This document shows, piece by piece, positions 2,058 through 27,189 of a stretch of DNA of 37,021 bases. The stretch is from a virus, in IMG/VR virus record IMGVR_UViG_3300025141_000310, positions 1-37,021 of that record, one strand, 5' to 3'. Made by a program: the position numbers and the translations under genes. The notes beneath the pieces were generated by a model, which saw only the letters and a list, made by a program, of their open reading frames with translations, searched no databases and had not been told where the DNA came from. Within the stretch, counting starts at the first letter, position 1. Every line of letters begins with the position of its first letter.

Positions 2058-2818
2058 AGATTTGCTGTCTGCCTTTGTAGGTCTTTGATAATTGTCTCGG
2101 TGCTGTTGTTGCCTTGCGGCATTTGAAGCCGGCCATCTGCGTTGACTCCCCACTCGGCGGGGTCATCATCATAGCGCCCCTGCCTGAACCATGTGCCGGG
2201 GTGGGGGATAAATCTTTTTTCAACTTTGGCGGTAGCCTTTGCAAATGCCTTGACCGCCTCGTGTAATTCTTCAAAGCCCTTGGCATCAATGGCGGCCCTG
2301 ATTGGTTTCTCGGCGTCCTTGCGTCCTACCTTGCGAGGGTATGATTCATAAATCACACACCACCGCGACGCGGTGTTTGTTTTCTTTTCTATTCCATTCC
2401 CTTCTATTCTATTCGCCGCCGCTAATCTCCCAACGTCCGCCAACGTGTCGGCAGATTCTCCCAACGTGTCGGCAGATTCTCCCGGCGCCGGCTTGGCCAT
2501 GAGCCAGCCCGCTTTGCAAAGGTGCGGCAATGCTGCCTTGAAAATTCGCTCTGGTGCCCGTGTCTTGACTGCCATTTCCGCGGGCCCATAGGGGCGCCCG
2601 TCGCTAGAGGCTAACGTGCCGCGGATCGCGCACCGGCTGGCCAGTTGCACCATCAGAATCCACGCCGCGAAAATTTCGGGGCCGCCCTTGTGTTGCATCA
2701 ATGTGGCATAGGCAACCGAATCATGACTGTTCGGGATTGGCACCCAGCCCAACACCTTGAGCTTGCGGCTCGATGCGTTTTCAAATAGGGTGGCCCAATC
2801 TTTCACCACGTAGGTCAT
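2054..2818 (-). CDS. Replication initiation / replisome organiser-like protein
   Basis: The 254-residue protein resembles phage replisome organisers (lambda O or DnaD-like N-terminal winged helix plus a C-terminal helicase-loading part). The N-terminus (VLGWVPIPNSHDSVAYATLM) and the helical block after it fit a winged helix. The linker contains a repeated ESADTL segment. The C-terminal part has the signature IYESYPRKVGRKDAEKPIRA followed by FIPHPGTWFRQGRYDDD, which is common at the end of such proteins. It lies between the nuclease gene, overlapping its TGA by ATGA, and a small protein. Family assignment is from pattern recall, not a search. Confidence 0.65.
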   Translation of the reverse strand: MTYVVKDWATLFENASSRKLKVLGWVPIPNSHDSVAYATLMQHKGGPEIFAAWILMVQLASRCAIRGTLASSDGRPYGPAEMAVKTRAPERIFKAALPHLCKAGWLMAKPAPGESADTLGESADTLADVGRLAAANRIEGNGIEKKTNTASRWCVIYESYPRKVGRKDAEKPIRAAIDAKGFEELHEAVKAFAKATAKVEKRFIPHPGTWFRQGRYDDDPAEWGVNADGRLQMPQGNNSTETIIKDLQRQTANL

Positions 2819-3912: not shown

Positions 3913-3930
3913 CGTTTTTTTAATTAATTA

Positions 3931-3972
3931 GCGCCGGCGGGGGGTATACGTTGATGAGACTCCCGCCGGCGC
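3931..3972. promoter_or_regulatory. Perfect 11-bp inverted repeat between recT and the nuclease gene
   Basis: GCGCCGGCGGG (3931-3941) and CCCGCCGGCGC (3962-3972) are perfect inverted arms with a 20-base loop. A second palindrome, CCTTGCGCAAGG, is at 3990-4001. The 93-bp gap 3913-4005 is thus highly structured. On the minus strand no T-run follows, so an intrinsic terminator is unlikely. An mRNA hairpin that partly blocks transcription or sets the nuclease-to-RecT ratio is possible. Confidence 0.5.
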
Positions 3973-4005
3973 CGGGGTCACGACAACCCCCTTGCGCAAG
4001 GTCTT

Positions 4006-4659
4006 TTAATCATTTGCGGCCACTGGTTCGCTTTCTTTATTTTCCATCTCGGCGCCGGGAGGTGCGTCATCACCGAACAGCTCCAGCTTTTTGCCGGGCT
4101 CGATTTCACCCATGACAGGCGCGGGCGTGGCGTCATCTTCTTCAATGGTTTCTGACTCAAACGTATCATCAGCATAACCGGCAAAGCCAAAGGCCACGCG
4201 CACGCATTGGCTGAGTGCCTTGTGCCTTAACATTCGAAAAGGGTATTGCCGCCATGGTTCTGAATTGCGTTTGCATTCATCATAAAATTCCGTAATGACC
4301 ACGGGATTCTCCCGCCCCTTCACCCAAATTGTGCACGCACAAGAAAACGGGTTTTTGTTATCGTCAACCTGATAGGCAAAGCTCACGCCGTTCATTTTGG
4401 GGTGCTGGTTCATTATCTTGATCCAGCCGTCAATTGAGATGACGGGCACAATGCCCCCGGCTTTGGCCGGGAATGCATAGATTTCTTTCTGTAGCGGGTT
4501 GAGTTTGTGCTCGTTGGCCACCACGACCAGCGTCATCATTTCTTCATCATTGGCCCCCTTGAAAACTGTATTTTTCAGGGTCGCGTGGAGCTTCGCCGGC
4601 TCAAGGTTCATGCGTTCGGCCATCACGGCCAAGGCGCTGTCTTTTTTTCCAGTATCCAT
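4006..4659 (-). CDS. bet: RecT/Bet family single-strand annealing protein
   Basis: The 217-residue protein follows the Bet/RecT pattern: LEPAKLHATLKNTVFKGA near the start, then MMTLVVVANEHKLNPLQKEI and PVISIDGWIKIMNQHPKMNG, and later PWRQYPFRMLRHKALSQCVR followed by FGFAGYADD. These are the conserved blocks of phage Red-beta-type annealing proteins, which pair complementary single strands during recombination. The C-terminal about 45 residues are acidic and variable, as is usual. Gene order with the DUF2800 nuclease downstream supports a two-component recombination system. The start ATG follows an A-rich leader with no Shine-Dalgarno sequence. Confidence 0.85.
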   Translation of the reverse strand: MDTGKKDSALAVMAERMNLEPAKLHATLKNTVFKGANDEEMMTLVVVANEHKLNPLQKEIYAFPAKAGGIVPVISIDGWIKIMNQHPKMNGVSFAYQVDDNKNPFSCACTIWVKGRENPVVITEFYDECKRNSEPWRQYPFRMLRHKALSQCVRVAFGFAGYADDTFESETIEEDDATPAPVMGEIEPGKKLELFGDDAPPGAEMENKESEPVAAND

Positions 4660-5187: not shown

Positions 5188-6414
5188 CCCGCTTCTGAAA
5201 AAAAGAAAAAACAGAGGCTTTTGACCTCTCAAAAAAAAGGCCACCGGTTTGCTTCCAAAAAAAGAAAAAACAGAGGGTTTTGACCTCTCGAAAAAACAGA
5301 GGTCGTTTTGCTTCGAAAAAACAAAAAAACAGAGGCTTTTGACCTCTCAAAAAAACGGAGGCCGTTTTGCTTCCAAAAAACAAAAAAACAGAGGCTTTTG
5401 GCCCCTCGAAAAAACAGAGGTCGTTTTGCTTCGAAAAAACAAAAAAACAGAGGCTTTTGGCCCCTCGAAAAAACAGAGGTCGTTTTGCTTCGAAAAAACA
5501 AAAAAACAGAGGCTTTTGGCCCCTCGAAAAAACAGAGGTCGTTTTGCTTCGAAAAAACAAAAAAACAGAGGCTTTTGGCCTCTCAAAAAAACGGAGGTCA
5601 TTTTGCTTCCAAAAAACAAAAAAACAGAGGCAAAAACCCCCTCGAAAAAAAGGCCACCGGTTTGCTTCGAAAAAACAAAAAAACAGAGGCAAATCAGTGC
5701 CCGAAAAAAAGGCCGGCGTTTTGCTTCGAAAAAACAAAAAAACAGAGGCTTTTGGCCCCTCAAAAAAAAGGCCGGCGGATTTAGTCCAAAAAATGCCCAA
5801 AACACCGGAAAACCCCTGTTTTTGGGGGGTTTTGGGGGGTTTTGGGGGGTTTCAGGGGGTAAAATTGCAAATGTGTTTGCCTCAAAATAAAGCATTTTCA
5901 GAGGCAAAAACCCCCTCGAAAAAAAGGCCACCGGTTTGCTTCCAAAAAAAGAAAAAACAGAGGCTTTTGACCCCTCGAAAAAAAGGCCGGCATTTTGCTT
6001 CTGAAAAAAGAAAAAACAGAAGCAAATCAGTGCCCGAAAAAACGGAGGCCGTTTTGCTTCCAAAAAACAAAAAAACAGAGGCAAATCAGTGTCCAAAAAA
6101 ACAGAGGTCATTTTGCTTCTGAAAAACAAAAAAACGGAGGCAAATCAGTGTCCAAAAAAACGGAGGTCATTTTGCTTCGAAAAAAAGAAAAAACAGAGGC
6201 AAATCAGTGTCCAAAAAAACGGAGGCCGTTTTGCTTCCAAAAAACAAAAAAACAGAGGGTTTTGACCCCTCAAAAAAACGGAGGCCGTTTTGCTTCCAAA
6301 AAAAGAAAAAACAGAGGCAAATCAGTGCTCAAAAAAACAGAGGCCGTTTTGCTTCCAAAAAAAGAAAAAACAGAGGCTTTTGACCTCTCAAAAAAACAGA
6401 GGCCGTTTTGCTTA
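5188..6414. repeat. 59-bp tandem repeat array (about 19 units, two blocks)
   Basis: The anchor TTTGCTTC recurs every 59 bp, ten times in 5188-5780 and nine times in about 5895-6414, with a non-repeat insert between. Each unit contains two A-rich half units ending in AACAGAGG. Units are mosaics of alternative modules, for example CTTTTGGCCCCTCG, CAAATCAGTGTCCA or CAAAAACCCCCTCG at one position. On the minus strand many units read as a short hairpin (AGAGG/CCTCT around TCAAAAG) followed by TGTTTTTTTGTTTTTT, resembling a series of intrinsic terminators between int and xis. The last unit abuts the integrase stop codon. Because 59 is not a multiple of 3, long frames are open in several phases; I do not regard them as genes. 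Confidence 0.9.
5824..5859 (+). other. G-quadruplex-forming sequence inside the repeat array
   Basis: Four G-tracts of 6, 6, 6 and 5 bases at 5824-5829, 5834-5839, 5844-5849 and 5855-5859 are separated by TTTT, TTTT and TTTCA. This is a textbook intramolecular G-quadruplex pattern, similar to TTTTGGGG telomere repeats. It lies in the insert (about 5780-5895) that splits the 59-bp array. A CCCC-TGTTTTT-GGGG hairpin overlaps its left edge. Confidence 0.8.
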
Positions 6415-7827
6415 TTACGCGGCCCGCGTCGCCTTGACCGTTTCCGGTTTGCCCAACAGGCTTGCGGTGATGTCCTCATATTCTGGATATGACACCATGG
6501 CCTCATAGGTTCCCTTGGTGGTGCCGTAATCGGCGTGGCCAAGCACGTGCATCACCTTCACCAAGTCCCCGGTTTTGTCTGCGATTTGAGCGCCAAACCA
6601 TTTGCGCATTTCGTGGCAGCATTGGCGCCGGGTCCAGCCGTGCGCCCTCATGTAGTTGGCGACCGCATGGCCAAGGTGGTGCGCCCTGAATTCATGGCCG
6701 CCGCCGATGACGTAGGTGGGGCTCGTTTCCATTTCGCATAACTGCCGGTAAAGTTCCGCGCTCAATTTGACGGGCCTTGACCGGCCGCTTTTGGTGCCCT
6801 TGTTCGTGCCGTTTGATTCCACCATGATCTGAACCATTGACGGCATCTCGCTGATTTGGCTCCACATTAGAAAGCGCAATTCGTCAAGCCGCAAGCCCGT
6901 GTCAACGGCGATCATGAAACCTTTCCACACTTCAGGCTTTTCGGCTTTCAGTTTTTCAAGGCCGCCCCAGAGCTTGTCCATGGTGCGCCGGTTGGGGAGC
7001 TTGTACGGGTGCGGCTCTGGCGCGATGAATGTGAAAGCGTGGGTGAATTCCCGCAGCGAATCGGGCAACCGCATATCAGTGTAGATTCCAGACACCGGGC
7101 AAATCAGGTTTTTAGTCAGCCGGCTTTTTTCTGCGAATAGGGCGCGGGCCCGGCGAAGCTCCGAAGCTATTGAGCGCTTGACGCGCTCCATGTCCAGCGT
7201 GTTCAGCTTTCCATTTTTGGCTTTCAGGTGGGCGGGCCGATCTTCAAAGCCGTAAATCTTCGGCCCTTCAGCTTTGCGCAATCTCACGTAGTCGGCCACG
7301 AGTTCCTTTGTCAGCACGTTGGCCGACAGATTCGCCACGGCGTCCTTGCGCCGTTGGGCCGCCTCGGCCGAGCCGGCAACCTTAATGGCCTTGAATTCTG
7401 CGCGGCGCCTGTTCTTTGGATCAACGCGGGTTTGGCCCTCGTTCATTGTCGTTTTGATATTCAGAGCCAATGCAATGACCCGCGTGAATTCGGTGACGTT
7501 TTGGCGCCGAGTCGATTCCTTCAAATTTTGGGTGCGGTCGTGGGTTTCATATCGTTCGATGATGTCGCCAATGGTCGCCACCCGCTCCTTGCGTTTTTTG
7601 GTTTCGGCAAGCGCCTTTTCATCGCCGGCCAAGGCCAGCCCGATGATGCGCTGGGCTTCGTCCATCACCGCTTCGGGAATTCTGCTTGCCTTTATACATT
7701 CGTCGGTGATCACGTCGAGCACTTGGCACAAGTAACGCCCGTTTATTTTTTTGCGCAGTTCCCACTTGCCTGATGGGGTTAACTTGATTGCCTTTGCACC
7801 GAGTTTGATATGGTGTTTTTTTGCCAT
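6415..7827 (-). CDS. int: Tyrosine-type integrase
   Basis: The 470-residue protein is a phage integrase. The C-terminal catalytic domain shows the full residue set: Arg313 in DTGLRLDELR, Lys346 in GTKSGRSRPVK, His405 and Arg408 in CCHEMRKW, His431 in VLGHADYGTT and the nucleophile Tyr441 in GTYEAM. The N-terminal 230 residues should hold the arm-binding and core-binding domains. ATG 7827 (MAKKHHIKLG) is chosen over an upstream in-frame start because the extension is unlike integrase; AGAAAG lies about 10 bases upstream. A probable attP is directly upstream and the 59-bp repeat array starts at its stop codon. It would catalyse insertion and, with an excisionase, excision. Confidence 0.95.
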   Translation of the reverse strand: MAKKHHIKLGAKAIKLTPSGKWELRKKINGRYLCQVLDVITDECIKASRIPEAVMDEAQRIIGLALAGDEKALAETKKRKERVATIGDIIERYETHDRTQNLKESTRRQNVTEFTRVIALALNIKTTMNEGQTRVDPKNRRRAEFKAIKVAGSAEAAQRRKDAVANLSANVLTKELVADYVRLRKAEGPKIYGFEDRPAHLKAKNGKLNTLDMERVKRSIASELRRARALFAEKSRLTKNLICPVSGIYTDMRLPDSLREFTHAFTFIAPEPHPYKLPNRRTMDKLWGGLEKLKAEKPEVWKGFMIAVDTGLRLDELRFLMWSQISEMPSMVQIMVESNGTNKGTKSGRSRPVKLSAELYRQLCEMETSPTYVIGGGHEFRAHHLGHAVANYMRAHGWTRRQCCHEMRKWFGAQIADKTGDLVKVMHVLGHADYGTTKGTYEAMVSYPEYEDITASLLGKPETVKATRAA

Positions 7828-7935
7828 CTGTTTTTTGTTCTTTCTTGGTTGGTTAAGGCCGAGCGTACCACGGGCCCACGGGCTGACGGTTAAAAGTTGC
7901 GGCCACGAAATCCACCGACTTGCCCACAATTCGGG

Positions 7936-8177
7936 CGGCAAAGTTAAGTAAAAAGTTAAGCACCGGCGCCGCTGAATTCGGCGCTTTGCGGTTTGGCGCT
8001 GTTATACCGAGCCGAAAACGATCACCGCCAAGCCCGGCAAGCGTGCGACATCCTGCTCCCAAATTAGCAGGGCAGCGCTCTCGGTGTTTACTTGTGTTCA
8101 CTTTTCGGGGGTTTTGTTGTGAGGACGCATCACAAGTAATCACAAAGAGCGTCGGCAAAGTTAAGTAAAAAGTTAAG
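7936..8177. promoter_or_regulatory. attP: Probable phage attachment site (attP) with arm repeats
   Basis: Two identical 25-bp direct repeats (7936-7960 and 8153-8177), each with two AAGTTAAG words 12 bp apart, flank a central inverted repeat. On the minus strand the centre reads CCTGCT-AATTTGGG-AGCAGG (8051-8070), 6-bp arms with an 8-bp spacer, as expected for tyrosine-recombinase core sites. The distances from core to the repeats are about 90 and 83 bp. The site is directly upstream of int. The stretch TTTGGGAGCAGGATGTCGC resembles the anticodon arm of proline tRNA(UGG) genes, a possible attB. The 363-bp gap 7828-8190 holds no other credible gene. Confidence 0.6.
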
Positions 8178-8634: not shown

Positions 8635-8825
8635 TTCGTTTCCGCCCCCTCGGTTTTTTTGTTTTTCTGCGCGGCTCGCCACTTGGCCCAGCGTGCGTTG
8701 ATTGCGGCCTTGGCCTGTTTGCGTCGCTTGGCGGTCCCGGCCGGGTTGGCCTTGCCCCCCTTGGCGCCGATCTTTGCCATGTAGGCCGACACCTCGGCCG
8801 GCACTTTAGTTTTGTTGGTTTTCAT
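8631..8825 (-). CDS. Small very basic protein, possible DNA-binding
   Basis: This 64-residue protein (MKTNKTKVPAEVSAYMAKIG...) is rich in Lys, Arg and Ala. It contains AKGGKANPAGTAKRRKQAKA, a GGK-containing segment like small stress or nucleoid-associated proteins, and a helical AINARWAKWRAA stretch. It resembles short phage or bacterial proteins annotated only by their Lys-rich helix. It overlaps the end of the upstream gene by 20 bp and is coupled to the downstream gene by ATGA. Nucleic-acid binding is inferred from charge alone. Confidence 0.55.
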   Translation of the reverse strand: MKTNKTKVPAEVSAYMAKIGAKGGKANPAGTAKRRKQAKAAINARWAKWRAAQKNKKTEGAETK

Positions 8826-9033
8826 AATAAATTTTACAGGCCGCTTCATTCTCCTCGCGGCCGCGTTGCCATGCGCTCGCCCATGCTTCAGAATGGTCGG
8901 CGCCGGGCTCGCGGTATTGCACCGGGAGGGTCGGCGAATTGTGGGGGAATTTATTCCACCCATCATTGAACGCGGTAAAAGCGATTTCAGCTTCCCGCGT
9001 CTTGAATAATTTAAGTCGTATGCCTTTAATCAT
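8806..9033 (-). CDS. Hypothetical protein
   Basis: The 75-residue protein starts MIKGIRLKLFKTREAEIAFT. Aromatic and charged residues are spread throughout (FNDGWNKFPHNSP, EAWASAWQRGREEN), suggesting a small soluble helical domain. The leader upstream contains one copy of the reused G-rich element (9048-9067). Its 3' end overlaps the next gene by 20 bp. No family recognised. Confidence 0.55.
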   Translation of the reverse strand: MIKGIRLKLFKTREAEIAFTAFNDGWNKFPHNSPTLPVQYREPGADHSEAWASAWQRGREENEAACKIYYENQQN

Positions 9034-9047
9034 GGTCGTCGTGTTTT

Positions 9048-9067
9048 TTTAAGGGGTTGGGGTTTAG
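9048..9067 (-). repeat. Reused G-rich intergenic leader, copy 1
   Basis: The plus strand reads TTTAAGGGGTTGGGGTTTAG, identical at 9328-9347 and nearly so at 9662-9679. The copies at 9048 and 9328 span the stop codon of the gene upstream and reach almost to the start of the gene downstream, so cassettes seem to be exchanged exactly at gene borders. Confidence 0.6.
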
Positions 9068-9324
9068 GAAAGTTTTTTAATGCCGGCGCGGTGCAAATCG
9101 TATTTGGTGGCTGGCTTTGCGCTGGCGTAATCGTCCGGGGTGACTTGTAGAACCTCGCCGCCTTTAGCCAGTTTTATTTCGTAAAAGTCGTCATCGCCGC
9201 AATCGGAAAGGCAACCCAGCCTGTAAGCCAAAACGTCGGCCACGATTGACCGGCCGCGAAACTCGCCCCAAGTCTTGACGGGCTTGCTGATGTTCTTGAA
9301 TAAAAAGATTGTGTTGTCGTTCAT
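9064..9324 (-). CDS. Hypothetical protein with MNDN leader
   Basis: The 86-residue protein begins MNDNTIFLFKNISKPVKTWG. The start at 9324 is chosen because the same ATGAACGACAAC sequence starts the gene at 9658; the frame extends further upstream but only through the reused G-rich leader. The middle includes DCGDDDFYEIKLAKGGEVLQ and looks like a small alpha/beta protein. Function unknown. Confidence 0.55.
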   Translation of the reverse strand: MNDNTIFLFKNISKPVKTWGEFRGRSIVADVLAYRLGCLSDCGDDDFYEIKLAKGGEVLQVTPDDYASAKPATKYDLHRAGIKKLS

Positions 9325-9327
9325 AAT

Positions 9328-9347
9328 TTTAAGGGGTTGGGGTTTAG
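9328..9347 (-). repeat. Reused G-rich intergenic leader, copy 2
   Basis: Identical to 9048-9067. It runs from the stop codon of the gene ending at 9344 to just before the ATG at 9324. It carries no Shine-Dalgarno sequence on the minus strand. Confidence 0.6.
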
Positions 9348-9658
9348 AGAAAAGGAACAGAATCAACGCCGGTGAGTTTGGAAACGGCGCGGCGAAATGC
9401 TGCTTGCTCGCGGGGGTCGTTGCTCGCGTAGGTGTAAATGGTGCGGCCGTTGCAGGGTAGGTAGGCCCAATTTCCGCCCGAAGTTGTCACGCCGCCGATG
9501 TGGCTTGAGGTAACGCGCTCGGCATACTTAAGCACGCCGGCGCCGGTGAAGTAGTCGTTCCCGCTCACACCGATTTGCGCGGTGAATTTTTCACTCAGTT
9601 TGCGGCCGTACATCTTCGAACCTTTTAGAATTTGTTGGTTCGTGTTGTTGTCGTTCAT
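9344..9658 (-). CDS. Hypothetical protein with MNDNNTNQ leader
   Basis: The 104-residue protein begins MNDNNTNQQILKGSKMYGRK, a version of the shared leader that lacks only the Thr of MTND. The body has Gly/Ser-rich and aromatic segments (GGVTTSGGNWAYLPCNGRT) and a helical C-terminal part (NDPREQAAFRRAVSKLTGVD). It is preceded by a third, slightly diverged copy of the G-rich leader (9662-9679). No known family. Confidence 0.55.
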   Translation of the reverse strand: MNDNNTNQQILKGSKMYGRKLSEKFTAQIGVSGNDYFTGAGVLKYAERVTSSHIGGVTTSGGNWAYLPCNGRTIYTYASNDPREQAAFRRAVSKLTGVDSVPFL

Positions 9659-9661
9659 AAT

Positions 9662-9679
9662 TTTAAGGGGTTGGGGTTT
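9662..9679 (-). repeat. Reused G-rich intergenic leader, copy 3
   Basis: TTTAAGGGGTTGGGGTTT, matching the first 18 bases of copies at 9048 and 9328, and placed directly upstream of the ATG at 9658. Confidence 0.55.
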
Positions 9680-9688
9680 GGTTTTGGT

Positions 9689-9907
9689 TTAGAGGTTTCT
9701 CAAAATTGTCCGAAAAGTTTTACCGCAGCACTTACAGCGATCCTCGCGGCCCATTGCCCAAAGGGCATCTTGGCCACTGAATCCAACGAGCATTTTTTCA
9801 AATCCCTCATTCCACCGGGGAACGATTTTGATCTCGCCGCAATGCCCGCAGGGCACTGTCTGGCGGCTTTTCTTGGTGGCTTTTTTCTTGGTGCTGTCGT
9901 TCGTCAT
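9689..9907 (-). CDS. Small zinc-ribbon protein with MTNDS leader
   Basis: The 72-residue protein starts MTNDSTKKKATKKSRQTVPC. It has CGHC near residue 20 and CKCC near residue 58, a four-cysteine zinc ribbon. The basic N-terminus suggests nucleic-acid contact. The ATG at 9907 is chosen because it corresponds to the shared MTND start; a frame extending upstream simply reads through the promoter. It is the first gene after promoter E. Confidence 0.6.
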   Translation of the reverse strand: MTNDSTKKKATKKSRQTVPCGHCGEIKIVPRWNEGFEKMLVGFSGQDALWAMGREDRCKCCGKTFRTILRNL

Positions 9908-9915
9908 GGTGTAAA

Positions 9916-10006
9916 AGTATACCAAGCCGCCTCGTTTGTCCAACTTTATTTTTAGGGGTGGAATTAAACCCCTGTTTTTGTGGGGTCAATCGACGAAACT
10001 TTTTTT
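9916..10006 (-). promoter_or_regulatory. Promoter cassette E
   Basis: On the minus strand: -35 TTGGAC (9938-9943), 16-base spacer, -10 TATACT (9916-9921) with an upstream TGG that makes an extended -10. The spacer dyad seen in copies B and C is partly lost here. Upstream lie the CCCCACAAAAACAGGGG element (9969-9985) and an A-run (complement of T 10000-10006). The outer part overlaps the end of the upstream coding region. Confidence 0.65.
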
Positions 10007-10425
10007 CTCGTGCCCCGGTTCGTCAGAATTTTGATTGCCTTTTTGAAGTGCTTACGGCGCCCCCAGTAGTCTGCAATGGGGTGGCTGCCGCTTTGGTCGG
10101 TCACGATCCCATCACGAACGGCTTGCCAATGGTAGCCGGTTTGCACGATGTAACTCACGCCGGGCATGGCGTACCACTCAACCCAGTTCGCCAAGGTGCC
10201 CCGGCCCTCGGTGATCACCTCGTATTTGTAGCGGTATTGGTCCAGCATCTTTTTGACTTGCCACGTGTAGGTTCCGCCGCGCCACTTGTCGGCCATCTTC
10301 AGAGTTTTTTTGAAACCCTTGAAAACCTTTTCAGGATCGCGGCCGGTGACGTGGGCCACGGCGACCACGCCGCAAACGGGTTGGCCTTTGATCGCCTTGC
10401 CGTTGATGGTTTCGGCGCCGGTCAC
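9964..10425 (-). CDS. Papain-like / C39-like cysteine peptidase candidate
   Basis: The 153-residue protein has the order Cys-His-Asp expected for small papain-fold or C39-like peptidases: GQPVCGVVAVAHVTG near residue 18 (Cys, then helix), and later GVSYIVQTGYHWQAVRDGIV with the His, followed by TDQSG with a possible third residue. The last residues (SSIDPTKTGV) are simply the translation of the repeated regulatory element. The start is GTG at 10425, overlapping the stop of a 15-residue leader ORF (GTGA). The substrate is unknown; processing of a phage protein or attack on a host protein are both possible. A second protein of this type is at 12437-12883. Confidence 0.55.
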   Translation of the reverse strand: MTGAETINGKAIKGQPVCGVVAVAHVTGRDPEKVFKGFKKTLKMADKWRGGTYTWQVKKMLDQYRYKYEVITEGRGTLANWVEWYAMPGVSYIVQTGYHWQAVRDGIVTDQSGSHPIADYWGRRKHFKKAIKILTNRGTRKKVSSIDPTKTGV

Positions 10426-10469
10426 TTGGCGCCCCCTTGGTCAATGTGGAGTTTTGTTTTCTGTTTCAC
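10422..10469 (-). CDS. 15-residue leader peptide ORF
   Basis: GTG at 10469 opens MKQKTKLHIDQGGAK, whose TGA overlaps the GTG of the peptidase-like gene. The first six codons and about 25 upstream bases are the same as at the start of the gene at 10950 (repeat 10452-10497 and 10934-10977 on the plus strand). It may be a translational leader, or the remnant of a gene whose body was replaced. Confidence 0.4.
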   Translation of the reverse strand: MKQKTKLHIDQGGAK

Positions 10470-10503
10470 GTTCGTTTTTTTTCTGGGTTATGGTTCGAAT
10501 TGT

Positions 10504-10950
10504 TTAGCGGTTAACGGCGACGCTGGCGGCGTCCACGATTTGGCCAACCATTTTGCTGACCGCTGCTTTCTTTTTGTAGTCGTTGCGGAGGTCCGCCAAA
10601 TATGTCACCTCGGTTTTGTCGATCTTGGCGCCGTTGTGGTGTTTTTCGGTTTGGGCGCTTTCCTCCATCATTATTTTGTCAGCCGCGCATTGTCGGGCAA
10701 GGTTGCAATCTTCCGTAAGCTCGTAAAGCGCTTCGGTCAGTGAGCCGTTGTCGTCGATATTGATACCGGCGCGGATCGCTTCGTGGGTTTCGTAGATGTC
10801 GGCATATTGTGAGTCGTAAATATATGCAGCGCCGTATGTTTTCGACTCTTTGTCATAGGTCAAAGTTGCGCCCACGGTTAGGGCCGCCAAAACTAGGTGG
10901 CTCAGGTTTTTGTTTTCTTCGATCAACTCGGTTTTTGTTTTCTGTTTCAC
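10504..10950 (-). CDS. Hypothetical protein with MKQKTK leader
   Basis: The 148-residue protein begins MKQKTKTELIEENKNLSHLV from a GTG codon. The N-terminal helix is amphipathic and the middle has SKTYGAAYIYDSQYADIYET, followed by a long helical, acidic and then basic C-terminal part (EVTYLADLRNDYKKKAAVSK). The start is supported by the duplicated 45-bp leader shared with 10469. No membrane segment or catalytic motif is clear. Function unknown. Confidence 0.55.
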   Translation of the reverse strand: MKQKTKTELIEENKNLSHLVLAALTVGATLTYDKESKTYGAAYIYDSQYADIYETHEAIRAGINIDDNGSLTEALYELTEDCNLARQCAADKIMMEESAQTEKHHNGAKIDKTEVTYLADLRNDYKKKAAVSKMVGQIVDAASVAVNR

Positions 10951-10979
10951 GTTCGTTTTTTTTCTGGGTTATGGTTGGT

Positions 10980-11297
10980 TTATTCTTCAGCCGCCTCGCA
11001 ATAGGGGGCGACTTGTATTGTGTTTGATCCTCTAAAAATCACTTGGCGCTTGGTGTCGGTCTTAACGTCAAACAGCGTCGTGGTGCGTTGGGTCGTGGTC
11101 CGGGCCCACGCCGAGCATGGTGTGACGCGTGTCACCTCGTAGGTGGCGCCGCCCAGTTCGAACAGCTCGCCGATGCGGCGCAAAAGCGCGTTGCCCTTGC
11201 GGGCCGGTAGCCGGTCGGTGACATATTCCGCCGCGCCGTTCACCTCGACCACTTCGAGGCCGGCCGGGGTTTCCCTGTATTCGATTCGTGTTGTCAT
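10980..11297 (-). CDS. Hypothetical protein
   Basis: The 105-residue protein begins MTTRIEYRETPAGLEVVEVN and looks mainly beta-stranded, with Thr/Arg-rich stretches (ARTTTQRTTTLFDVKTDTKR). The upstream leader AACAGAATTATG is shared with the genes at 12883 and 14836. A small beta-barrel or regulatory protein is possible, but nothing identifies it. Confidence 0.5.
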   Translation of the reverse strand: MTTRIEYRETPAGLEVVEVNGAAEYVTDRLPARKGNALLRRIGELFELGGATYEVTRVTPCSAWARTTTQRTTTLFDVKTDTKRQVIFRGSNTIQVAPYCEAAEE

Positions 11298-11309
11298 AAT
11301 TCTGTTGTT

Positions 11310-11786
11310 TTAATTCTCGATAATATCGAAAGAAGGTTTTGCGGTTTCTAAAAAAGCAAGTTTTGCTTTTGCCCTTGCGACCACTGGGGGCTTGGCCAAG
11401 CTGGCGTAATTTTCCATCCAGCTTTTGGAACAGCGGAGGCCGCCGGCGATACTGCGCCTTGACTCATTCAAGCCGACTTCCTTTGCCATCTTCCTAGCAT
11501 CCTCGATAGTGTGAGCAAGGATTGTGAGTTTGGGGCTCAAGTTAACTCCGATAAAATTTCCGTTTTCTTCACAGGTCGCGGTTCCTTGAATTTTCCCGAA
11601 AGACTCAATCAGAATTTTGCGAATGCTAACAGTCACTTTTTGCGTCTCATAATTCTCTCCCCAGACCGAAACTCGAAAGGCCGTCATGCCCTTTTTGAAT
11701 TTGGAATTATCGGAAAGAAGGTTTGCGCAGTTTTCGAGCTTCTTGAGGAGTGCTTTCGTTTGGTTGCTGTTGTTGTCGTTCGTCAT
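11310..11786 (-). CDS. Hypothetical protein with MTNDNNSNQ leader
   Basis: The 158-residue protein starts MTNDNNSNQTKALLKKLENC. After the leader comes an alpha/beta body (FRVSVWGENYETQKVTVSIR) and a helical C-terminal half (EDARKMAKEVGLNESRRSIA). Here the MTND leader is preceded not by the promoter but by the 50-bp hairpin leader shared with the gene at 14026, so leader peptide and upstream cassette combine independently. No family recognised. Confidence 0.55.
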   Translation of the reverse strand: MTNDNNSNQTKALLKKLENCANLLSDNSKFKKGMTAFRVSVWGENYETQKVTVSIRKILIESFGKIQGTATCEENGNFIGVNLSPKLTILAHTIEDARKMAKEVGLNESRRSIAGGLRCSKSWMENYASLAKPPVVARAKAKLAFLETAKPSFDIIEN

Positions 11787-11833
11787 GTCTTTGGGTTTCT
11801 GTTGTTGTTCGTGGCGCCCTTTCGGGCGCCGGT
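11784..11833 (-). repeat. 50-bp hairpin leader, copy 1
   Basis: Identical to 14024-14073 over 50 bp, including the ATG of the gene. On the minus strand it forms GGCGCCC-GAAA-GGGCGCC (11813-11830), a 7-bp GC stem with a GNRA-type tetraloop, followed by an A/C-rich unstructured stretch to the ATG. No T-run follows, so it is an mRNA leader or processing site rather than a terminator. Confidence 0.7.
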
Positions 11834-11836
11834 GGT

Positions 11837-12088
11837 TTAGCCTAGTAGTGCGTCCAGAATCGCGAGGTGGCGCTCATCAATTGCGCGATCATGGGGGCAG
11901 ATAATGCAGTGCTTGAGACTTCCGCGAAGAACGTCACGATACGCCTTCTGTTCATTGAGTGGCATATTATTGAGTGCCAGCACGTCGTTGCTTGTGCGTT
12001 GGGGCGTGGCGGCCGTAACCTTGGCGGCGGCAAAAACCTGAGCCGCGCTCAGTCTGGTGATTTGGTTCGTGTTGTTGTCGTTCGTCAT
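11837..12088 (-). CDS. Hypothetical protein with MTNDNNTNQ leader
   Basis: The 83-residue protein begins MTNDNNTNQITRLSAAQVFA. A helical region follows (LNEQKAYRDVLRGSLKHC) and the C-terminal part has CIICPHDRAIDERH, whose Cys and His residues could bind a metal. The ATG at 12088 is chosen by the shared MTND start directly below promoter D. Function unknown. Confidence 0.55.
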   Translation of the reverse strand: MTNDNNTNQITRLSAAQVFAAAKVTAATPQRTSNDVLALNNMPLNEQKAYRDVLRGSLKHCIICPHDRAIDERHLAILDALLG

Positions 12089-12096
12089 GTTGTTAA

Positions 12097-12187
12097 AATA
12101 TACGAGGCCGGCTCGTTTGTCCAACTTTATTTTCAGGGGGTCCATAATAGCTCTGTTTTTGTGGGGTCAATTCTCCAAACTTTTTTT
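12097..12187 (-). promoter_or_regulatory. Promoter cassette D
   Basis: Minus strand: -35 TTGGAC (12119-12124), 16-base spacer, -10 TATATT (12097-12102). The spacer dyad CGAGGC-C-GGCTCG has one mismatch. Upstream is a degenerate copy of the dyad element (12151-12166), then the A-run (complement of T 12181-12187), which lies inside the end of the upstream gene. Confidence 0.65.
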
Positions 12188-12421
12188 ATCGATGGCGGGC
12201 CCTATTGAATAAATTCGATACTTTAGGCGGCCTCGCATTTCGGTGGCGCTGGTTAAGCGGTAAAAGTCGCCGGTGGCTTTTTCGCAAATAAGGCCCTCGC
12301 TTGCGAATGGCTGGGCGGCCCACCACGCCCACCCGCTTGCCAGCTCGCGAGGTGTGAACGCGCGGCAATCTTCATCAAATAGGTGCACCCCGTAGCCGGC
12401 CAATAATTCGCGGTAGATCAT
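12167..12421 (-). CDS. Hypothetical protein
   Basis: The 84-residue protein starts MIYRELLAGYGVHLFDEDCR. It has a Trp-rich helix (ELASGWAWWAAQPFASEG) and a beta-like C-terminal part (RLKYRIYSIGPAIDKKS). It follows the peptidase-like gene by 15 bp and is probably co-transcribed with it. The last codons overlap regulatory cassette D. No family recognised. Confidence 0.5.
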   Translation of the reverse strand: MIYRELLAGYGVHLFDEDCRAFTPRELASGWAWWAAQPFASEGLICEKATGDFYRLTSATEMRGRLKYRIYSIGPAIDKKSLEN

Positions 12422-12436
12422 TTTATTTTTTTGGGT

Positions 12437-12883
12437 TTAGTTGGTTTTGTAAACTGCATGAATCTCGGCGACCCGGCGGCGATCGTTCTTGCGGTTGTCG
12501 GTGTCGATCAGGGTGGTGCCGTCACGGTCTAAAACGATGGCGTGCGCCCAGCCGGCGCCGTGTACGATTGCAATATATTTTGCCGCTTGCGGGTCATCCA
12601 GCTTGGCGAGCTTCGTGCGGACCTTGCCGACTGTCGTATTATATCCGCCAACCGAGGAGAGGCGCGAACGCACCGCGAAACCGAACCGGCGTAAAATTGA
12701 GCCGCGGCGGTTGTCGGTGGCATACTTGCCATTTTTCCGCAAACCTTTACAGGTGTAATTGTAAGCGCTTGCCGGTACGCCGAAAAAGGAAAGGCAAGTC
12801 GAAACGCAAACGGTCTTGCGCTGGCCGCTGCCGTGGGTGATATGGTCCCGCAGCACGATGTTTGATTTTGTGAGAGTTGTCAT
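12437..12883 (-). CDS. Second papain-like cysteine peptidase candidate
   Basis: The 148-residue protein shows the same order of candidate catalytic residues as the gene at 9964: a Cys at the start of a helix in QRKTVCVSTCLSFFGVPAS, a His in GAGWAHAIVLDRDG and an Asp or Asn in TTLIDTDNRK. The spacing suits a C39-like or papain-fold peptidase. Overall it is Arg/Lys-rich, which is unusual for an endolysin, and it lies away from the lysis cassette. The AACAGAAATATG leader resembles those of the genes at 11297 and 14836. The assignment is from pattern only; an inactive fold or a transglutaminase-like enzyme are alternatives. Confidence 0.55.
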   Translation of the reverse strand: MTTLTKSNIVLRDHITHGSGQRKTVCVSTCLSFFGVPASAYNYTCKGLRKNGKYATDNRRGSILRRFGFAVRSRLSSVGGYNTTVGKVRTKLAKLDDPQAAKYIAIVHGAGWAHAIVLDRDGTTLIDTDNRKNDRRRVAEIHAVYKTN

Positions 12884-12909
12884 ATTTCTGTTGGTTGGGG
12901 GGTTGGGGT

Positions 12910-13137
12910 TTAGAGACCGAGCACATACTGGGTTTGCCCGTTCGCGAATGTGTAAGCGAGATGAAGTTTCTTTCCGTTGGGGCGCCGCAAGATCAGGTCC
13001 GCCACGATGCCGACATGGTTGCGGTGATTCACTAGGTTTACGCGGCCCGCTTTGCGGTGCTGCTCGGTGGTAATTACTTCTTCGACGTTGTAGGTGGTGC
13101 CGTTAAGTTTGATTTGGTTGCTGCTGTCGTTCGTCAT
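12910..13137 (-). CDS. Hypothetical protein with MTNDSSNQ leader
   Basis: The 75-residue protein begins MTNDSSNQIKLNGTTYNVEE, followed by beta-like segments (HVGIVADLILRRPNGKKLHL). The ATG at 13137 sits directly below promoter C. It may be a small beta-barrel. No known family, and no membrane or metal motif. Confidence 0.55.
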   Translation of the reverse strand: MTNDSSNQIKLNGTTYNVEEVITTEQHRKAGRVNLVNHRNHVGIVADLILRRPNGKKLHLAYTFANGQTQYVLGL

Positions 13138-13145
13138 GTTGTTAA

Positions 13146-13247
13146 AGTATACGAGGCCGCCTCGTTTGTCCAACTTTATTTTTCACCTTTTTCGAAATCG
13201 GCCATTTCACCCCTGTTTTTGTGGGGCCAAATGGCCAAACTTTTTTT
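13146..13247 (-). promoter_or_regulatory. Promoter cassette C with a perfect spacer dyad
   Basis: Minus strand: -35 TTGGAC (13168-13173), 16-base spacer, -10 TATACT (13146-13151). The spacer contains a perfect palindrome, CGAGGC-C-GCCTCG (13152-13164), placed where a repressor would block RNA polymerase. Upstream is a larger hairpin: GGCCATTT (13200-13207) pairs with AAATGGCC (13229-13236) around the CCCC/GGGG dyad (13210-13226), followed on the plus strand by T 13241-13247. The cassette is nearly identical to cassette B. Confidence 0.7.
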
Positions 13248-13253
13248 CAGTCA

Positions 13254-13282
13254 GAGGGGTTGCGCCCTTTCGGGCGCCCCTC
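13254..13282. repeat. GC-rich hairpin after the gene at 13295
   Basis: GAGGGG-TT-GCGCCC-TTTC-GGGCGC-CCCTC forms a long stem with the same GAAA tetraloop (minus strand) as the 50-bp hairpin leaders. No T-run follows on the minus strand, so it may protect the 3' end of the mRNA. Confidence 0.55.
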
Positions 13283-13294
13283 GCCTTGCTGGCT

Positions 13295-14026
13295 TTAGGA
13301 AATCTCTGCCTCTAGTTTCGCGCTCACTTCCTTTGCTGCGGCAAGTTGTCTTTGTAATTCCTCGACCTTTTGCGCTGCCTGTTTTGCTTCGGCCTTTGCG
13401 GCCTCTTTTGCCTCTTCGGCTTGCTCTGCCTCTAGGCGTGCCTTGTATTCGATTTGCGTAACTCTCTCGCGCTCTTGGGTGATTGCTGCGGCCTTGTGAA
13501 CCTTTTCAATCAAAACAGGATCAACCAGCGTAAGGCGTGCGAATGATCCGCCAAGCCAATGAGCGCCGGGGCAAGTGTCAGTTACTTCTTGGCATTTATA
13601 TTCGTTGTCGAAATACCATGATTCCCAAGTTGCGCCCAGATTGTAACTCACCTCGGCGGCGTCAAGATAGATTTCTGCATTCCCAACTGTTTGGCTTTCT
13701 GCATTCCACGTGATCTCTTCAAGAAACTGGCGGGCATATTCTTCGGCAAGTTGCTGGAAGTCTTTTTTTGTTTTTGGCGCTTCGTCTGGGAAATCCTTTT
13801 CTCTCAATGAGGCATAATCACCAAGCCCCTCTTGCGGGATCATCAGTGTCTCATGCCTGTCCCATTTCATGCGCTCGCCTGTTTTTGTGCCGCGCACAAT
13901 TTCAGTCGTAGGCTTTTCAAAATACTTGCGCTTGTCGCTGGCTATGTCGGCGGTGTATTGCGCGAAGGTTTGGTCGAATGGGAACAATTCAATTTTGATC
14001 CCGTTTAGTGTATATTCTTTTTCCAT
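13295..14026 (-). CDS. Hypothetical protein with a C-terminal coiled coil
   Basis: The 243-residue protein begins MEKEYTLNGIKIELFPFDQT. The N-terminal 180 residues look like a soluble alpha/beta domain with several Trp residues (GATWESWYFDNEYKCQEV). The last 60 residues are an Ala/Glu/Lys-rich coiled coil (KARLEAEQAEEAKEAAKAEA). It is one of the larger accessory proteins. It has the 50-bp hairpin leader but not the MTND leader peptide. Function unknown. Confidence 0.6.
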   Translation of the reverse strand: MEKEYTLNGIKIELFPFDQTFAQYTADIASDKRKYFEKPTTEIVRGTKTGERMKWDRHETLMIPQEGLGDYASLREKDFPDEAPKTKKDFQQLAEEYARQFLEEITWNAESQTVGNAEIYLDAAEVSYNLGATWESWYFDNEYKCQEVTDTCPGAHWLGGSFARLTLVDPVLIEKVHKAAAITQERERVTQIEYKARLEAEQAEEAKEAAKAEAKQAAQKVEELQRQLAAAKEVSAKLEAEIS

Positions 14027-14073
14027 GTCTTTGGGTTTCTGTTGTTGTTCGTGGCGCCCTTTCGGGCGCCGGT
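14024..14073 (-). repeat. 50-bp hairpin leader, copy 2
   Basis: Identical to 11784-11833, with stem arms at 14053-14059 and 14064-14070. The downstream genes (13295-14026 and 11310-11786) are unrelated, so the leader has been copied without its gene. Confidence 0.7.
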
Positions 14074-14077
14074 TCGT

Positions 14078-14368
14078 TTAGTGTTGGTCGGCGATCGCTT
14101 GCGCGAGGTAGCCGAAAAAGTGATTCAAATTGCCGTTTGCAAAATCAATTTTGCGAATGATGTTTTCGACCTGCTTGCGCTCGGCGCCGGCCGTCGTGGA
14201 AATGTGACTGATCACGATTTCGGTGTCGATGATGTGGAGGTTCCCGGCGCGGTCGGTCTTTTCAAAAATTTCGGTGCTGATATTCTTCTCGGAAAAAAAG
14301 CGGTTGAGGTATGTGCCGGCTTTGAAAAGTTGGCTCCGGGTTTCTTGCTTGCTGTTGTCGTTCGTCAT
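14078..14368 (-). CDS. Hypothetical protein with MTNDNSKQ leader
   Basis: The 96-residue protein begins MTNDNSKQETRSQLFKAGTY. The body is helical with an Ile-rich middle (GNLHIIDTEIVISHISTTAG) and a second helix (AERKQVENIIRKIDFANGN). The ATG at 14368 lies directly below promoter B. No known family. Confidence 0.55.
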   Translation of the reverse strand: MTNDNSKQETRSQLFKAGTYLNRFFSEKNISTEIFEKTDRAGNLHIIDTEIVISHISTTAGAERKQVENIIRKIDFANGNLNHFFGYLAQAIADQH

Positions 14369-14376
14369 GTTGTTAA

Positions 14377-14479
14377 ATTATACGAGGCCGCCTCGTTTGT
14401 CCAACTTTATTTTTCACCTTTTTCGAAATCGGCCATTTCACCCCTGTTTTTGTGGGGTCAAATCGCTAAACTTTTTTTT
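14377..14479 (-). promoter_or_regulatory. Promoter cassette B with consensus -10
   Basis: Minus strand: -35 TTGGAC (14399-14404), 16-base spacer, -10 TATAAT (14377-14382), the full consensus. The spacer holds the perfect dyad CGAGGC-C-GCCTCG. Upstream are the CCCC/GGGG element (14441-14457) and, on the plus strand, T 14472-14479. It is almost base-for-base the same as cassette C over about 110 bp, suggesting recent duplication. Confidence 0.75.
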
Positions 14480-14657
14480 GTGGAATTGCTCTCATTAGAA
14501 ACGGGGCCCCCGGATTGCAAGGGCACCAGACCTTCCCGCGGCCGATTTCTTCATGGCCGCACTCAGGGCACCGTTGTGGTCTGGGCTTCGCCTTGCGGTT
14601 GATCTGTTCCAAGGTGGGGCGGGCGGGGGTGCGAGTGTTTCCAGTGTAGCGATTCAT
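14466..14657 (-). CDS. Small zinc-ribbon protein
   Basis: The 63-residue protein (MNRYTGNTRTPARPTLEQIN...) carries CPECGHEE and, after 11 residues, CPC, giving a three- or four-ligand zinc ribbon. The N-terminus is basic. Its start overlaps the end of the upstream gene by 4 bp (ATGA type), so translation is coupled. The end (PQKKV) reads through the A-run of cassette B. A nucleic-acid-binding role is likely by fold type only. Confidence 0.55.
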   Translation of the reverse strand: MNRYTGNTRTPARPTLEQINRKAKPRPQRCPECGHEEIGRGKVWCPCNPGAPFLMRAIPQKKV

Positions 14658-14836
14658 TTTCCGAAGGCTTGAGAAAGTTTGTCGAAATGGCCGGCGTGCG
14701 TTCCCATGTTGTTGGCGTGTTGCAACGCCCGAAACAGGCCGGCGGCCTCGTTAAATGTTTCGCACGTTTTGGCAGCGGCTAAATTCTGCTCCATTGTGGT
14801 TGAAACGACGTTCTGCTCTTTTCCGTTTTTCTTCAT
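14654..14836 (-). CDS. Hypothetical small protein
   Basis: The 60-residue protein begins MKKNGKEQNVVSTTMEQNLA and is mostly helical (AAGLFRALQHANNMGTHAGH). The leader AACAGAATTATG is shared with the genes at 11297 and 12883. It is coupled to the zinc-ribbon gene by ATGA. No family recognised. Confidence 0.5.
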   Translation of the reverse strand: MKKNGKEQNVVSTTMEQNLAAAKTCETFNEAAGLFRALQHANNMGTHAGHFDKLSQAFGK

Positions 14837-14864
14837 AATTCTGTTGGTTGGGGGTTAGTTGGTT

Positions 14865-15143
14865 TTATTCTTTTTCCATTGTGGCGATTATGGAATTCAG
14901 ATTGTGCCGTATCCCCCACAATGGAGATAAAACGCTTTTGCGGTAGCCTTTAGTGGCCCCGGCTTTTTCGTCGCGGGCTTGTTGGTTTGTTTCGTCCGCG
15001 ATTTTTTTGTTGAGGTGGCGAAGTTCCTCGCGGCAAGCCATTGCGATTAGTTGTCTCCGAGGCCGATCAAGTTCGATGTTCATGCTGTAGTTGGTGTCGA
15101 TCTTCATGGCCTCGGTTTGGTTCGTGCTGTTGTCGTTCGTCAT
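14865..15143 (-). CDS. Hypothetical protein with MTNDNSTNQ leader
   Basis: The 92-residue protein begins MTNDNSTNQTEAMKIDTNYS. After the leader it is helical and basic (RPRRQLIAMACREELRHLNK), with a second helical segment (IRHNLNSIIATMEKE). It is the first gene of the accessory region as transcribed, directly below promoter A. A later in-frame ATG (MKIDTNYS) could be the ancestral start before the leader was added. Function unknown. Confidence 0.55.
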   Translation of the reverse strand: MTNDNSTNQTEAMKIDTNYSMNIELDRPRRQLIAMACREELRHLNKKIADETNQQARDEKAGATKGYRKSVLSPLWGIRHNLNSIIATMEKE

Positions 15144-15151
15144 GGTGGAAA

Positions 15152-15242
15152 TCTATACCAAGCCGCTTCGTTTCGCGAGCTTTATTTTTAGGGGTGAAAT
15201 AAAAGGCTTGTTTTTGAGGGGTGAAACGACGAAACTTTTTTT
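15152..15242 (-). promoter_or_regulatory. Promoter cassette A (diverged, extended -10)
   Basis: Minus strand: -10 TATAGA (15152-15157) preceded by TGG, an extended -10; the -35 (CTCGCG) is lost. The spacer dyad changes to AAGC-C-GCTT, with a compensating base-pair change relative to B and C (G-C to A-T). A variant CCCC/GGGG element is at 15205-15221 and a GACGAAA/TTTCGTC hairpin at about 15228-15246. Confidence 0.5.
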
Positions 15243-15320
15243 CGTCATTCTGTTGACGTTCTGGCTGCCGGCTGGGTTTTCGGTCGTTCGTTACCCGGTC
15301 GGTGGTCTTTTTTTATCGAA

Positions 15321-16271: not shown

Positions 16272-16299
16272 CTCTACTAATACCCTAGGTGTCAACCTT
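16272..16299 (-). promoter_or_regulatory. 28-bp late boundary motif, copy 1 (before lysis genes)
   Basis: On the minus strand it begins AAGGTTGACACC and ends TTAGTAGAG, two bases before the ATG at 16269. The stop codon TAG of the tail fibre lies inside the motif. Other copies are at 27162-27189, 30155-30182, 33102-33129 and 33952-33979. Confidence 0.7.
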
Positions 16300-27161: not shown

Positions 27162-27189
27162 TTCTATAAATGGGCCCGGTGTCAACCTT
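27162..27189 (-). promoter_or_regulatory. 28-bp late boundary motif, copy 2 (before tail tube)
   Basis: Differs from the 33102 copy only in the last base on the minus strand (A instead of G). It directly follows, and overlaps by two bases, the stop of the upstream gene. Unlike the other copies it lies about 60 bp before the next ATG, so it is not simply a start-codon context. Confidence 0.7.

Follow-up and report, generated by a model that had tools for sequence, protein, structure and literature searches.

Why do eight small proteins of one phage locus begin with almost the same residues? The locus lies in an IMG/VR virus record (IMGVR_UViG_3300025141_000310), and the whole stretch analysed, 37,021 nucleotides, is referred to as the window. 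The initial annotation listed six MTND-type and two MNDN-type starts on unrelated proteins, and all eight are in frame and genuine. The phage carries a lambda-family portal, a minor tail protein and an integrase. In the overall explanation given below, which we consider probable, this is a temperate, siphovirus-like phage and the locus one of its accessory regions, moron-like in kind. The phage family with such start cassettes is marine, the relatives compared are IMG/VR phages, and every genome compared is an uncultured contig. Genes near the locus that matter for the argument are:

2815-3912, minus strand: PD-(D/E)XK/DUF2800 nuclease, probable RecT partner (domain search)
4006-4659, minus strand: RecT-family single-strand annealing protein (Pfam PF03837, E 1.4e-20)
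6415-7827, minus strand: tyrosine integrase, downstream border of the accessory locus (PF00589, E 1.1e-9)

Several related phages have RecT and/or PD-(D/E)XK-type nuclease genes, and a homologue of the integrase is found in one contig (G009). Integron gene cassettes have an attC site at the gene 3' end and an IntI integrase; here the integrase matches the generic Phage_integrase family only, and Rfam gave no matches. A terminase search of genome contigs returned only two Verrucomicrobia MAG loci at 31-32%, too distant for host assignment. The phage GenBank collection holds no DNA match to the accessory locus, and the C-terminus of the tail fibre, used as bait, brought up no relatives.

The shared start is conserved as DNA, as had been claimed. 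With up to three mismatches, ATGACGAACGACAAC occurs ten times against 1.27 expected, and six of these matches are the MTND starts, each with 0-1 mismatch. Mean identity over codons 2-6 of the six MTND genes is 0.92, compared to 0.37 (maximum 0.48) for composition-shuffled leaders and 0.29 for 23 other phage genes. The exact MTND DNA pattern has 12 matches among all viral contigs, none with the window's leader or promoter, and these were judged to be chance. Upstream of five MTND genes the similarity continues over a promoter segment of about 130 bp, present in five copies in the window:

14345-14478, minus strand: promoter + MTND cassette of gene 14078-14368, matching the 13137 copy at 96% across 134 bp
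13114-13247 (inner end approximately 13114), minus strand: promoter + MTND cassette of gene 12910-13137, with the strongest stem-loop (-26 kcal/mol, centroid)
12058-12187, minus strand: promoter + MTND cassette of gene 11837-12088, 77% identity, stem-loop degenerate
9888-10007, minus strand: promoter + MTND cassette of gene 9689-9907, 77% identity
15116-15247, minus strand: promoter + MTND cassette of gene 14865-15143, further diverged than the others (pieces 15116-15189 and 15209-15247, 78% and 83%)

The cassette at 14368 comprises a stem-loop (CCCCACAAAAACAGGGG), a -35-like TTGGAC, a palindrome (ACGAGGCGGCCTCGT) and a -10 TATAAT that ends 8 nt before the ATG, followed by the first codons ATGACGAACGACAACAGC. 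The stem-loop is present in the 13137 and 14368 cassettes and weak or absent at 12088 and 9907. No T-run follows the cassette stem-loops on the coding strand; terminator-like sites on that strand of the window lie apart from them and total no more than expected by chance. The palindrome ACGARGCGGCYTSGTATA is confined to the promoter segments (both orientations counted; 0.11 expected) and is individually weak in several copies; a search for its regulator identified none. The window's -35 departs from the consensus, and only one of the five promoters is recovered when sigma70 sites are scanned for strictly, with total matches at chance level. Once 15 residues are removed, the five proteins behind the segment have no mutual BLASTP match at E<0.01 (the proteins at 11786, 9658 and 9324 were left out of this test), so these five are not paralogues sharing more than a leader. 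The upstream cassette end reaches into neighbouring genes: at 12088 it consists of the last codons (KKSLEN*) of ORF 12167-12421, with the stop at -81, and ORF 9964-10425 terminates within the 9907 cassette, with the stop at -59. The downstream border lies about 6-8 codons inside the gene and not at the start codon, where the initial annotation had placed it.

Further leader families occur in the same locus:

11772-11832, minus strand: hairpin leader (GGCGCCCGAAAGGGCGC...ACGAACAACAACAGAAACCCAAAGAC) followed by MTND codons, gene 11310-11786 (fold z -4.0)
14027-14072, minus strand: identical hairpin leader without MTND, before gene 13295-14026, which starts MEKEYT (fold z -5.4)
13262-13278, minus strand: third copy, only the hairpin, past the stop codon of gene 13295-14026 (repeat match, fold)
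9644-9678, minus strand: C/A-rich leader AACCCCAACCCCTTAAAATT + ATGAACGACAACAAC (MNDN), gene 9344-9658 (repeat match)
9310-9344, minus strand: C/A-rich leader + ATGAACGACAACACA (MNDN), gene 9064-9324 (repeat match)
9047-9064, minus strand: C/A-rich leader, third copy, before gene 8806-9033 (repeat match)
10933-10974, minus strand: 42-bp leader + GTG start + codons MKQKTK, gene 10504-10950 (exact repeat)
10452-10493, minus strand: exact second copy of the 42-bp leader
14833-14854, minus strand: A/C leader CCCCCAACCAACAGAATTATGA, gene 14654-14836 (repeat match)
12880-12901, minus strand: A/C leader CCCCCAACCAACAGAAATATGA, gene 12437-12883 (repeat match)

The hairpin copies at 11786 and 14026 match exactly, with and without MTND as had been described. 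The leader called G-rich is C-rich on the coding strand; its two MNDN copies stand, and the third lacks MNDN. The exact 42-bp repeat takes in the GTG plus five more codons. In its second copy the start codon opens a frame of 15 amino acids (10422-10469); its TGA shares bases with the GTG that begins gene 9964-10425 (GTGA), that is, the cassette is joined out of frame. Leaders with CCCCCAACCAACAGAA precede the genes at 14836 and 12883.

One gene allows leader and body to be followed separately:

11310-11786, minus strand: gene body with other leaders elsewhere (relatives G031/G030, L126 and L129)

Its relatives start with a promoter and MTTTNETK in G031/G030 and L126, and with a Shine-Dalgarno leader and MKTKT in L129, a phage otherwise unrelated to that of the window. 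Since the L129 version is leadered and has a Shine-Dalgarno, leaderlessness is not universal. Window and L129 are 86% identical at the DNA level from about codon 4 exactly through the stop codon, while the flanks are at 0.58-0.61 identity versus 0.59 for random sequence. In L129, the homologue and the unrelated next gene share this further kind of leader together with MKTKT, and the sequences downstream of the family members differ. The proposal that cassettes combine freely with gene bodies is supported.

At least four other phages have the same cassette design with different sequences. Promoter cassettes precede 12 genes in G031, four in G040, three each in G043 and G033, and one in G025. 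In G031, the 12 genes lie behind a 91-bp segment encoding MTTTNET, with sharp borders (-67 to +24); for nine of the 12 cassettes the stop codon of the preceding ORF falls between -57 and -87. All 28 promoter cassettes have a -35-like element, a spacer of 15-17 nt and a -10-like element ending 6-9 nt before the ATG; the repeated start regions were taken from targeted lists, as an untargeted scan was swamped by tail-fibre repeats. Within a phage, leaders on unrelated genes share 0.86 identity over codons 2-6 and 0.84 over the 45 nt upstream; between phages these values are 0.41 and 0.36. This difference was reached in none of 5000 label permutations and persists without G031. By the initial annotation, cassette exchange would not be needed if relatives had the same genes, in the same order, under the same leaders; this is not so, as the leaders of orthologues differ, even in class. 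Divergence of leaders between phages is little proof by itself, however, because the upstream identity of structural orthologues is likewise at chance (0.28), with codons 2-6 keeping 0.61; lost upstream similarity between orthologues was dropped as proof of exchange after this control. The weight of the case for exchange lies in the sharing within phages and in the replaced first codons.

We consider it probable, judging from sequence, that start cassettes with (near-)leaderless starts, each phage having its own kind in multiple copies, drive expression of swapped small genes, that the peptides are by-products and that the recombination is probably of RecT type. The sequences themselves show the repeats, the unrelated bodies, the specificity for each phage, the change of leader on one gene and the borders; transcription start, leaderless translation, operator role and route of recombination are inferred. 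A first type of cassette would carry, in the window, a stem-loop upstream, and then a sigma70-like promoter whose spacer holds an operator-like palindrome; transcription would start at the AUG or immediately ahead of it, and the first 5-8 codons would also belong to the cassette. A second type, A/C-rich leaders without promoter, would serve the genes further along in each short operon. Recombination between gene bodies and cassettes, probably by RecT-type annealing at the repeats, would give a gene the cassette of its current phage. The observation behind the initial annotation is confirmed and its interpretation partly supported, with the refinement that cassettes are specific to each phage. 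Free combination behind standard modules is supported; a dedicated placement system would not be needed, since homologous recombination of the ordinary kind, or of RecT type, acting at repeats would be enough. No exchange was observed directly. The RecT gene invoked is present, as is a nuclease gene, and RecT with an exonuclease could drive the exchange. A bolder version is tentative and perhaps somewhat doubtful: the locus as a gene-capture platform, in which promoterless, start-less bodies, with limits close to the start and at the stop codon, are swapped between phages and fuse at the A/C-rich codons to a resident cassette; from it they would gain both a phage-specific operator and a leaderless start, and so enter one regulon in one step.

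Alternatively, stem-loop, promoter and codons could be the moving unit, copied before resident genes in a PeSL-like manner. The position of the cassettes' 5' ends among the final codons of preceding ORFs (KKV* as well as KKSLEN*), the different ages of the copies (96% vs 77%) and an opposite-strand copy in G031 agree with this. Nonetheless, we regard it as unlikely: the L129/window pair has the gene body and not the cassette in common, and other viral contigs yielded no copy of the window promoter core, which therefore does not resemble an element that spreads.

Exchanged start cassettes, our preferred reading, also have to account for the peptides. None of the 15 accessory starts in the window shows a Shine-Dalgarno; the late genes are poor in them as well (4/16). 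Folding at the accessory starts is -3 versus -9 kcal/mol for late genes, the first codons in promoter cassettes are A/C-rich and unstructured (without T in codons 2-8 of the window's promoter class), and the A/C fraction of internal leaders is 0.78-0.96 versus about 0.52 genome-wide. Leaderless translation is boosted by CA repeats after the start codon (PMC9031893), and ACA motifs enhance initiation (PMC3879156). As in these systems, the cassettes have A/C-rich first codons and leaders and, by prediction, an AUG close to the 5' end of the transcript or right at it; in the phages, however, the A/C-rich start would be a repeated, transferable cassette. Such codons may let ribosomes start on (near-)leaderless, Shine-Dalgarno-free mRNA, and MTND in the window, like MTTTNET, MLNGTN and others elsewhere, would be by-products. 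The shared start peptide is better explained as a side effect of copying a (near-)leaderless, A/C-rich translation-start element along with the promoter than as a functional leader peptide. That the peptide is itself a tag marking one phage's accessory proteins (for chaperone binding, co-ejection with DNA, localisation or stability) is rather improbable. It is near-identical on six window and twelve G031 proteins, and the peptides of different phages are alike in character (rich in T, N, K, E, D and Q), but this bias follows from A/C-rich codons, and untranslated leaders are A/C-rich too. Moreover, synonymous positions are conserved as strongly as promoter bases, which indicates copied DNA, and both the hairpin leader lacking MTND and the out-of-frame 42-bp copy argue against a tag. 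An ordinary regulon of duplicated genes or old paralogues under selection on promoter and operator, without exchange, draws some support from an AGC-N-GCT-like palindrome centre near -22 in several phages, which suggests a common regulator, but is highly implausible and already largely contradicted by bodies without residual homology, identity spanning codons and stem-loop alike, and different leader classes on orthologues.

The nearest known kinds of repeat are PeSL, SAS/ESAS and EGeRS, relative to which the extension into coding sequence and the phage-specificity are new. PeSL were reportedly described as mobile regulatory cassettes of T4-type phages by Arbiol et al. in 2010 and Comeau et al. 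in 2014; we know of none that extend into coding sequence or have common start peptides. According to PMC4503421, these 'mobile regulatory cassettes' are repeated composites of a stem-loop and a sigma70-like promoter, lie around small genes whose function is not known and are linked to modular shuffling. The window likewise has stem-loops and promoters between small accessory genes. PeSL belong to T4-like myoviruses and early promoters, whereas the present phage is temperate, siphovirus-like and not of T4 type (lambda-family portal, minor tail protein, integrase), its starts are predicted to be (near-)leaderless, its cassette differs per phage, and its stem-loops, without T-run, are not intrinsic terminators on the coding strand. 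SAS/ESAS of Cluster K mycobacteriophages and Microbacterium Cluster EF phages (PMC3203893, PMC7302621) are likewise short repeats, placed immediately ahead of the start codons of small genes that are unrelated to one another, and the consensus of their inverted-repeat part differs between subclusters. The SAS, however, is a 13-bp element with a Shine-Dalgarno core at the RBS position, upstream of the start only, while the cassettes lack a Shine-Dalgarno and include codons; no such element occurs at the 15 accessory starts. The ESAS largely follows its gene family across genomes, unlike the leaders here. EGeRS of pLS20-family conjugative plasmids (PMC8708921) similarly place one regulatory sequence before several operons, with types differing between plasmids. 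They span 420-750 bp before plasmid establishment genes and end just before the RBS, without codons, whereas the cassettes are phage-borne, measure 91 bp in G031 and about 130 bp in the window, and reach codons 6-8. Phage morons, finally, are inserted genes with independent transcription, and the present small genes resemble them in having their own promoter and stem-loop. In G031/G030, a cassette + gene unit, with predicted transcription of its own, is inserted in reverse between the terminase and portal genes and is absent from the window. In ordinary morons, to our knowledge, promoter and first codons are not common to unrelated neighbours.

If correct, the exchange of start cassettes offers a testable route from a foreign gene body to an expressed, regulated phage gene, with promoter, operator-like site, transcript end and first codons supplied by the resident cassette. 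It would explain common N-termini of unrelated small phage proteins, which could mislead homology searches, and predict, for many small genes whose function is not known, the start site and the timing of expression. With the cassettes as markers, such loci can also be located in uncultured phages and exchanged accessory genes enriched, for which counter-defence is a candidate role. Searches against Pfam, PHROGs and PADLOC gave no match of the accessory proteins above curated cut-offs except one:

9964-10425, minus strand: small protein, PHROG 3754 (unknown function), E 1.4e-8

Weak PADLOC matches (best E 0.0003) were discounted as evidence, and the structure model of 12437-12883 is too poor for use (pLDDT 45). 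The model of 9964-10425 resembles C39 (papain-like) peptidase domains, with low confidence (pLDDT 57; best fold-search E 0.018).

All eight MTND- and MNDN-type starts (the N-terminal peptides common to small accessory genes) described in the initial annotation exist in the window. Matches to ATGACGAACGACA with at most three mismatches number 10, against 1.27 expected, and codons 2-6 of the six MTND genes show an identity of 0.92, compared to 0.37 after composition shuffling and 0.29 in 23 of the phage's other genes. The upstream segment said to be common to five MTND genes was likewise found; it combines a sigma70-like promoter with a stem-loop and a palindrome. The claimed unrelatedness of the leader-sharing proteins holds, beyond the leader, among the five encoded behind this segment. 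An exact copy of the stem-loop (CCCCACAAAAACAGGGG; 66-82, minus strand) also lies near the contig end, where promoter and MTND are absent. Further leader families recur in the window:

Hairpin leader: two copies, plus one hairpin alone
C/A-rich leader: three copies
Exact 42-bp leader including the start codon: two copies
CCCCCAACCAACAGAA leader: two copies

Upstream ORFs (14466-14657, 12167-12421 and 9964-10425) terminate within the cassettes. The second 42-bp leader copy (10452-10493) opens a 15-codon frame whose TGA overlaps the GTG of gene 9964-10425, and this out-of-frame junction supports a unit at the DNA level.

Other phages of the group carry orthologues of the window's accessory genes, with leaders that match within a phage and differ between phages. 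In viral contig G031 (L089), 12 unrelated genes begin with ...TTGACAGCACAGCCGCTTTGCAC..(12 nt)..ATGACAACAACGAACGAGACA, encoding MTTTNET (one lacks the first two Thr codons). This cassette has sharp borders at -67 and +24, and in 9 of the 12 the stop of an upstream ORF falls between -57 and -87. Two unrelated G031 genes (25889; 4059, minus strand) have nine further bases in common past the cassette (ACTTCAAAA), possibly a recombination joint inside the gene. Contig G040 has an MLNGTN start on three genes behind TTTACA promoters, and G043, G033 and G025 each have their own version.

The same gene can also occur behind different cassettes. For 12437-12883, the window shows an A/C leader and G031 the promoter cassette. 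In the window, 11310-11786 begins with the hairpin leader and MTND; its counterparts in G031, G030 and L126 begin with promoter + MTTTNETK, and that in L129, an otherwise unrelated phage, begins with a Shine-Dalgarno leader + MKTKT. The next L129 gene, which is unrelated, repeats this leader and start. The two MKTKT genes are adjacent (around 7431-8070 of the reverse complement), behind a promoter-like sequence, TTGACACAAGCGGTTG. Between window and L129, 11310-11786 shows 86% DNA identity that begins at about codon 4 and ends precisely with the stop codon, with 60 nt on each side at random-level similarity; the L129 phage has one other weak match to the tested window proteins (37% over 86 aa). 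Because structural orthologues also show random upstream identity (0.28; codons 2-6, 0.61), exchange is not argued from upstream divergence. Rather, sharing within phages, the replacement of first codons and the borders in L129 point to cassette exchange. An inverted unit of cassette and gene lies between the terminase and portal genes in G031 (3598-4059, minus strand), G030 and L126; in G031 and G030 it carries the counterpart of 11310-11786. The unit's second gene resembles an accessory gene of contig G009.

In 28/28 promoter cassettes, 6-9 nt separate the end of the proposed -10 hexamer from the ATG, so transcription is predicted to start at or a few nt from the ATG. Of 15 accessory starts analysed in the window, none has a Shine-Dalgarno sequence (late genes: 4/16), and their folding is weak (about -3 versus -9 kcal/mol for late genes). 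Promoter-class accessory starts have no T in codons 2-8, and internal leaders have an A/C content of 78-96%, compared to about 52% genome-wide. Leaderless translation is strongly enhanced by CA repeats after the start codon (PMC9031893), and initiation by ACA motifs (PMC3879156). On these combined grounds, the shared peptide would represent the coding portion of a translation-start element. In the window, G031 and G025, the palindrome (AGC-N-GCT-like centre) precedes the ATG by 21-23 nt, and G040 has weaker versions of it; perfect copies have a shuffle probability of 0.001-0.004, and other copies are unremarkable. A common regulator (repressor or activator) is plausible; the search identified none. 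RecT and/or nuclease genes occur in the window, G033, G040 and G031, and their products would take part in gene exchange.

Repeated regulatory sequences before unrelated genes are known as PeSL in T4-type phages (PMC4503421), SAS/ESAS in actinobacteriophages (PMC3203893, PMC7302621) and EGeRS in pLS20 plasmids (PMC8708921). We place the start cassettes with this kind as a new form: in the available descriptions, none of these systems includes first codons, whereas the window cassettes do. Moreover, an ESAS mostly remains with its gene family, while window-type leaders change on the same gene, and SAS has a Shine-Dalgarno core, which the window accessory starts lack.

The 37,021-bp IMG/VR virus record, with its main genes all on the minus strand, encodes a terminase, lambda-type portal, minor tail protein, tyrosine integrase, RecT and a PD-(D/E)XK/DUF2800 nuclease. 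Relatives of the terminase are uncultured IMG/VR contigs; its only cellular matches are two distant loci, both in Verrucomicrobia MAGs. The accessory locus (8990-15250) has the integrase on one side and, on the other, small genes lying downstream of the tail fibre that probably make up the lysis region; the stretch between such genes and the integrase is a usual site of accessory genes. The accessory genes had no Pfam family match above cut-offs and no informative PHROG or PADLOC match. Two (9964-10425 and 12437-12883, minus strand) encode small proteins in which Cys, His and Asp are conserved, and the model of the former resembles, with low confidence, C39 (papain-like) peptidase domains. Directly downstream of the integrase, a long tandem array (5191-6413) is built from a ~59-bp unit with many A/T runs; it comprises 9.8 + 8.7 copies with a break around 5770-5900, and gives rise to long spurious ORFs. 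In the structural or late region, a second start-linked repeat, AAGGTTGACACC-N6-ATTnnTAGAG, lies next to start codons (four copies found, none expected by chance):

16272-16299, minus strand: repeat copy
27162-27189, minus strand: repeat copy
30155-30182, minus strand: repeat copy
33102-33129, minus strand: repeat copy

Among the fetched loci, only the window and G001, a near-identical relative, contain an exact short form of this repeat.
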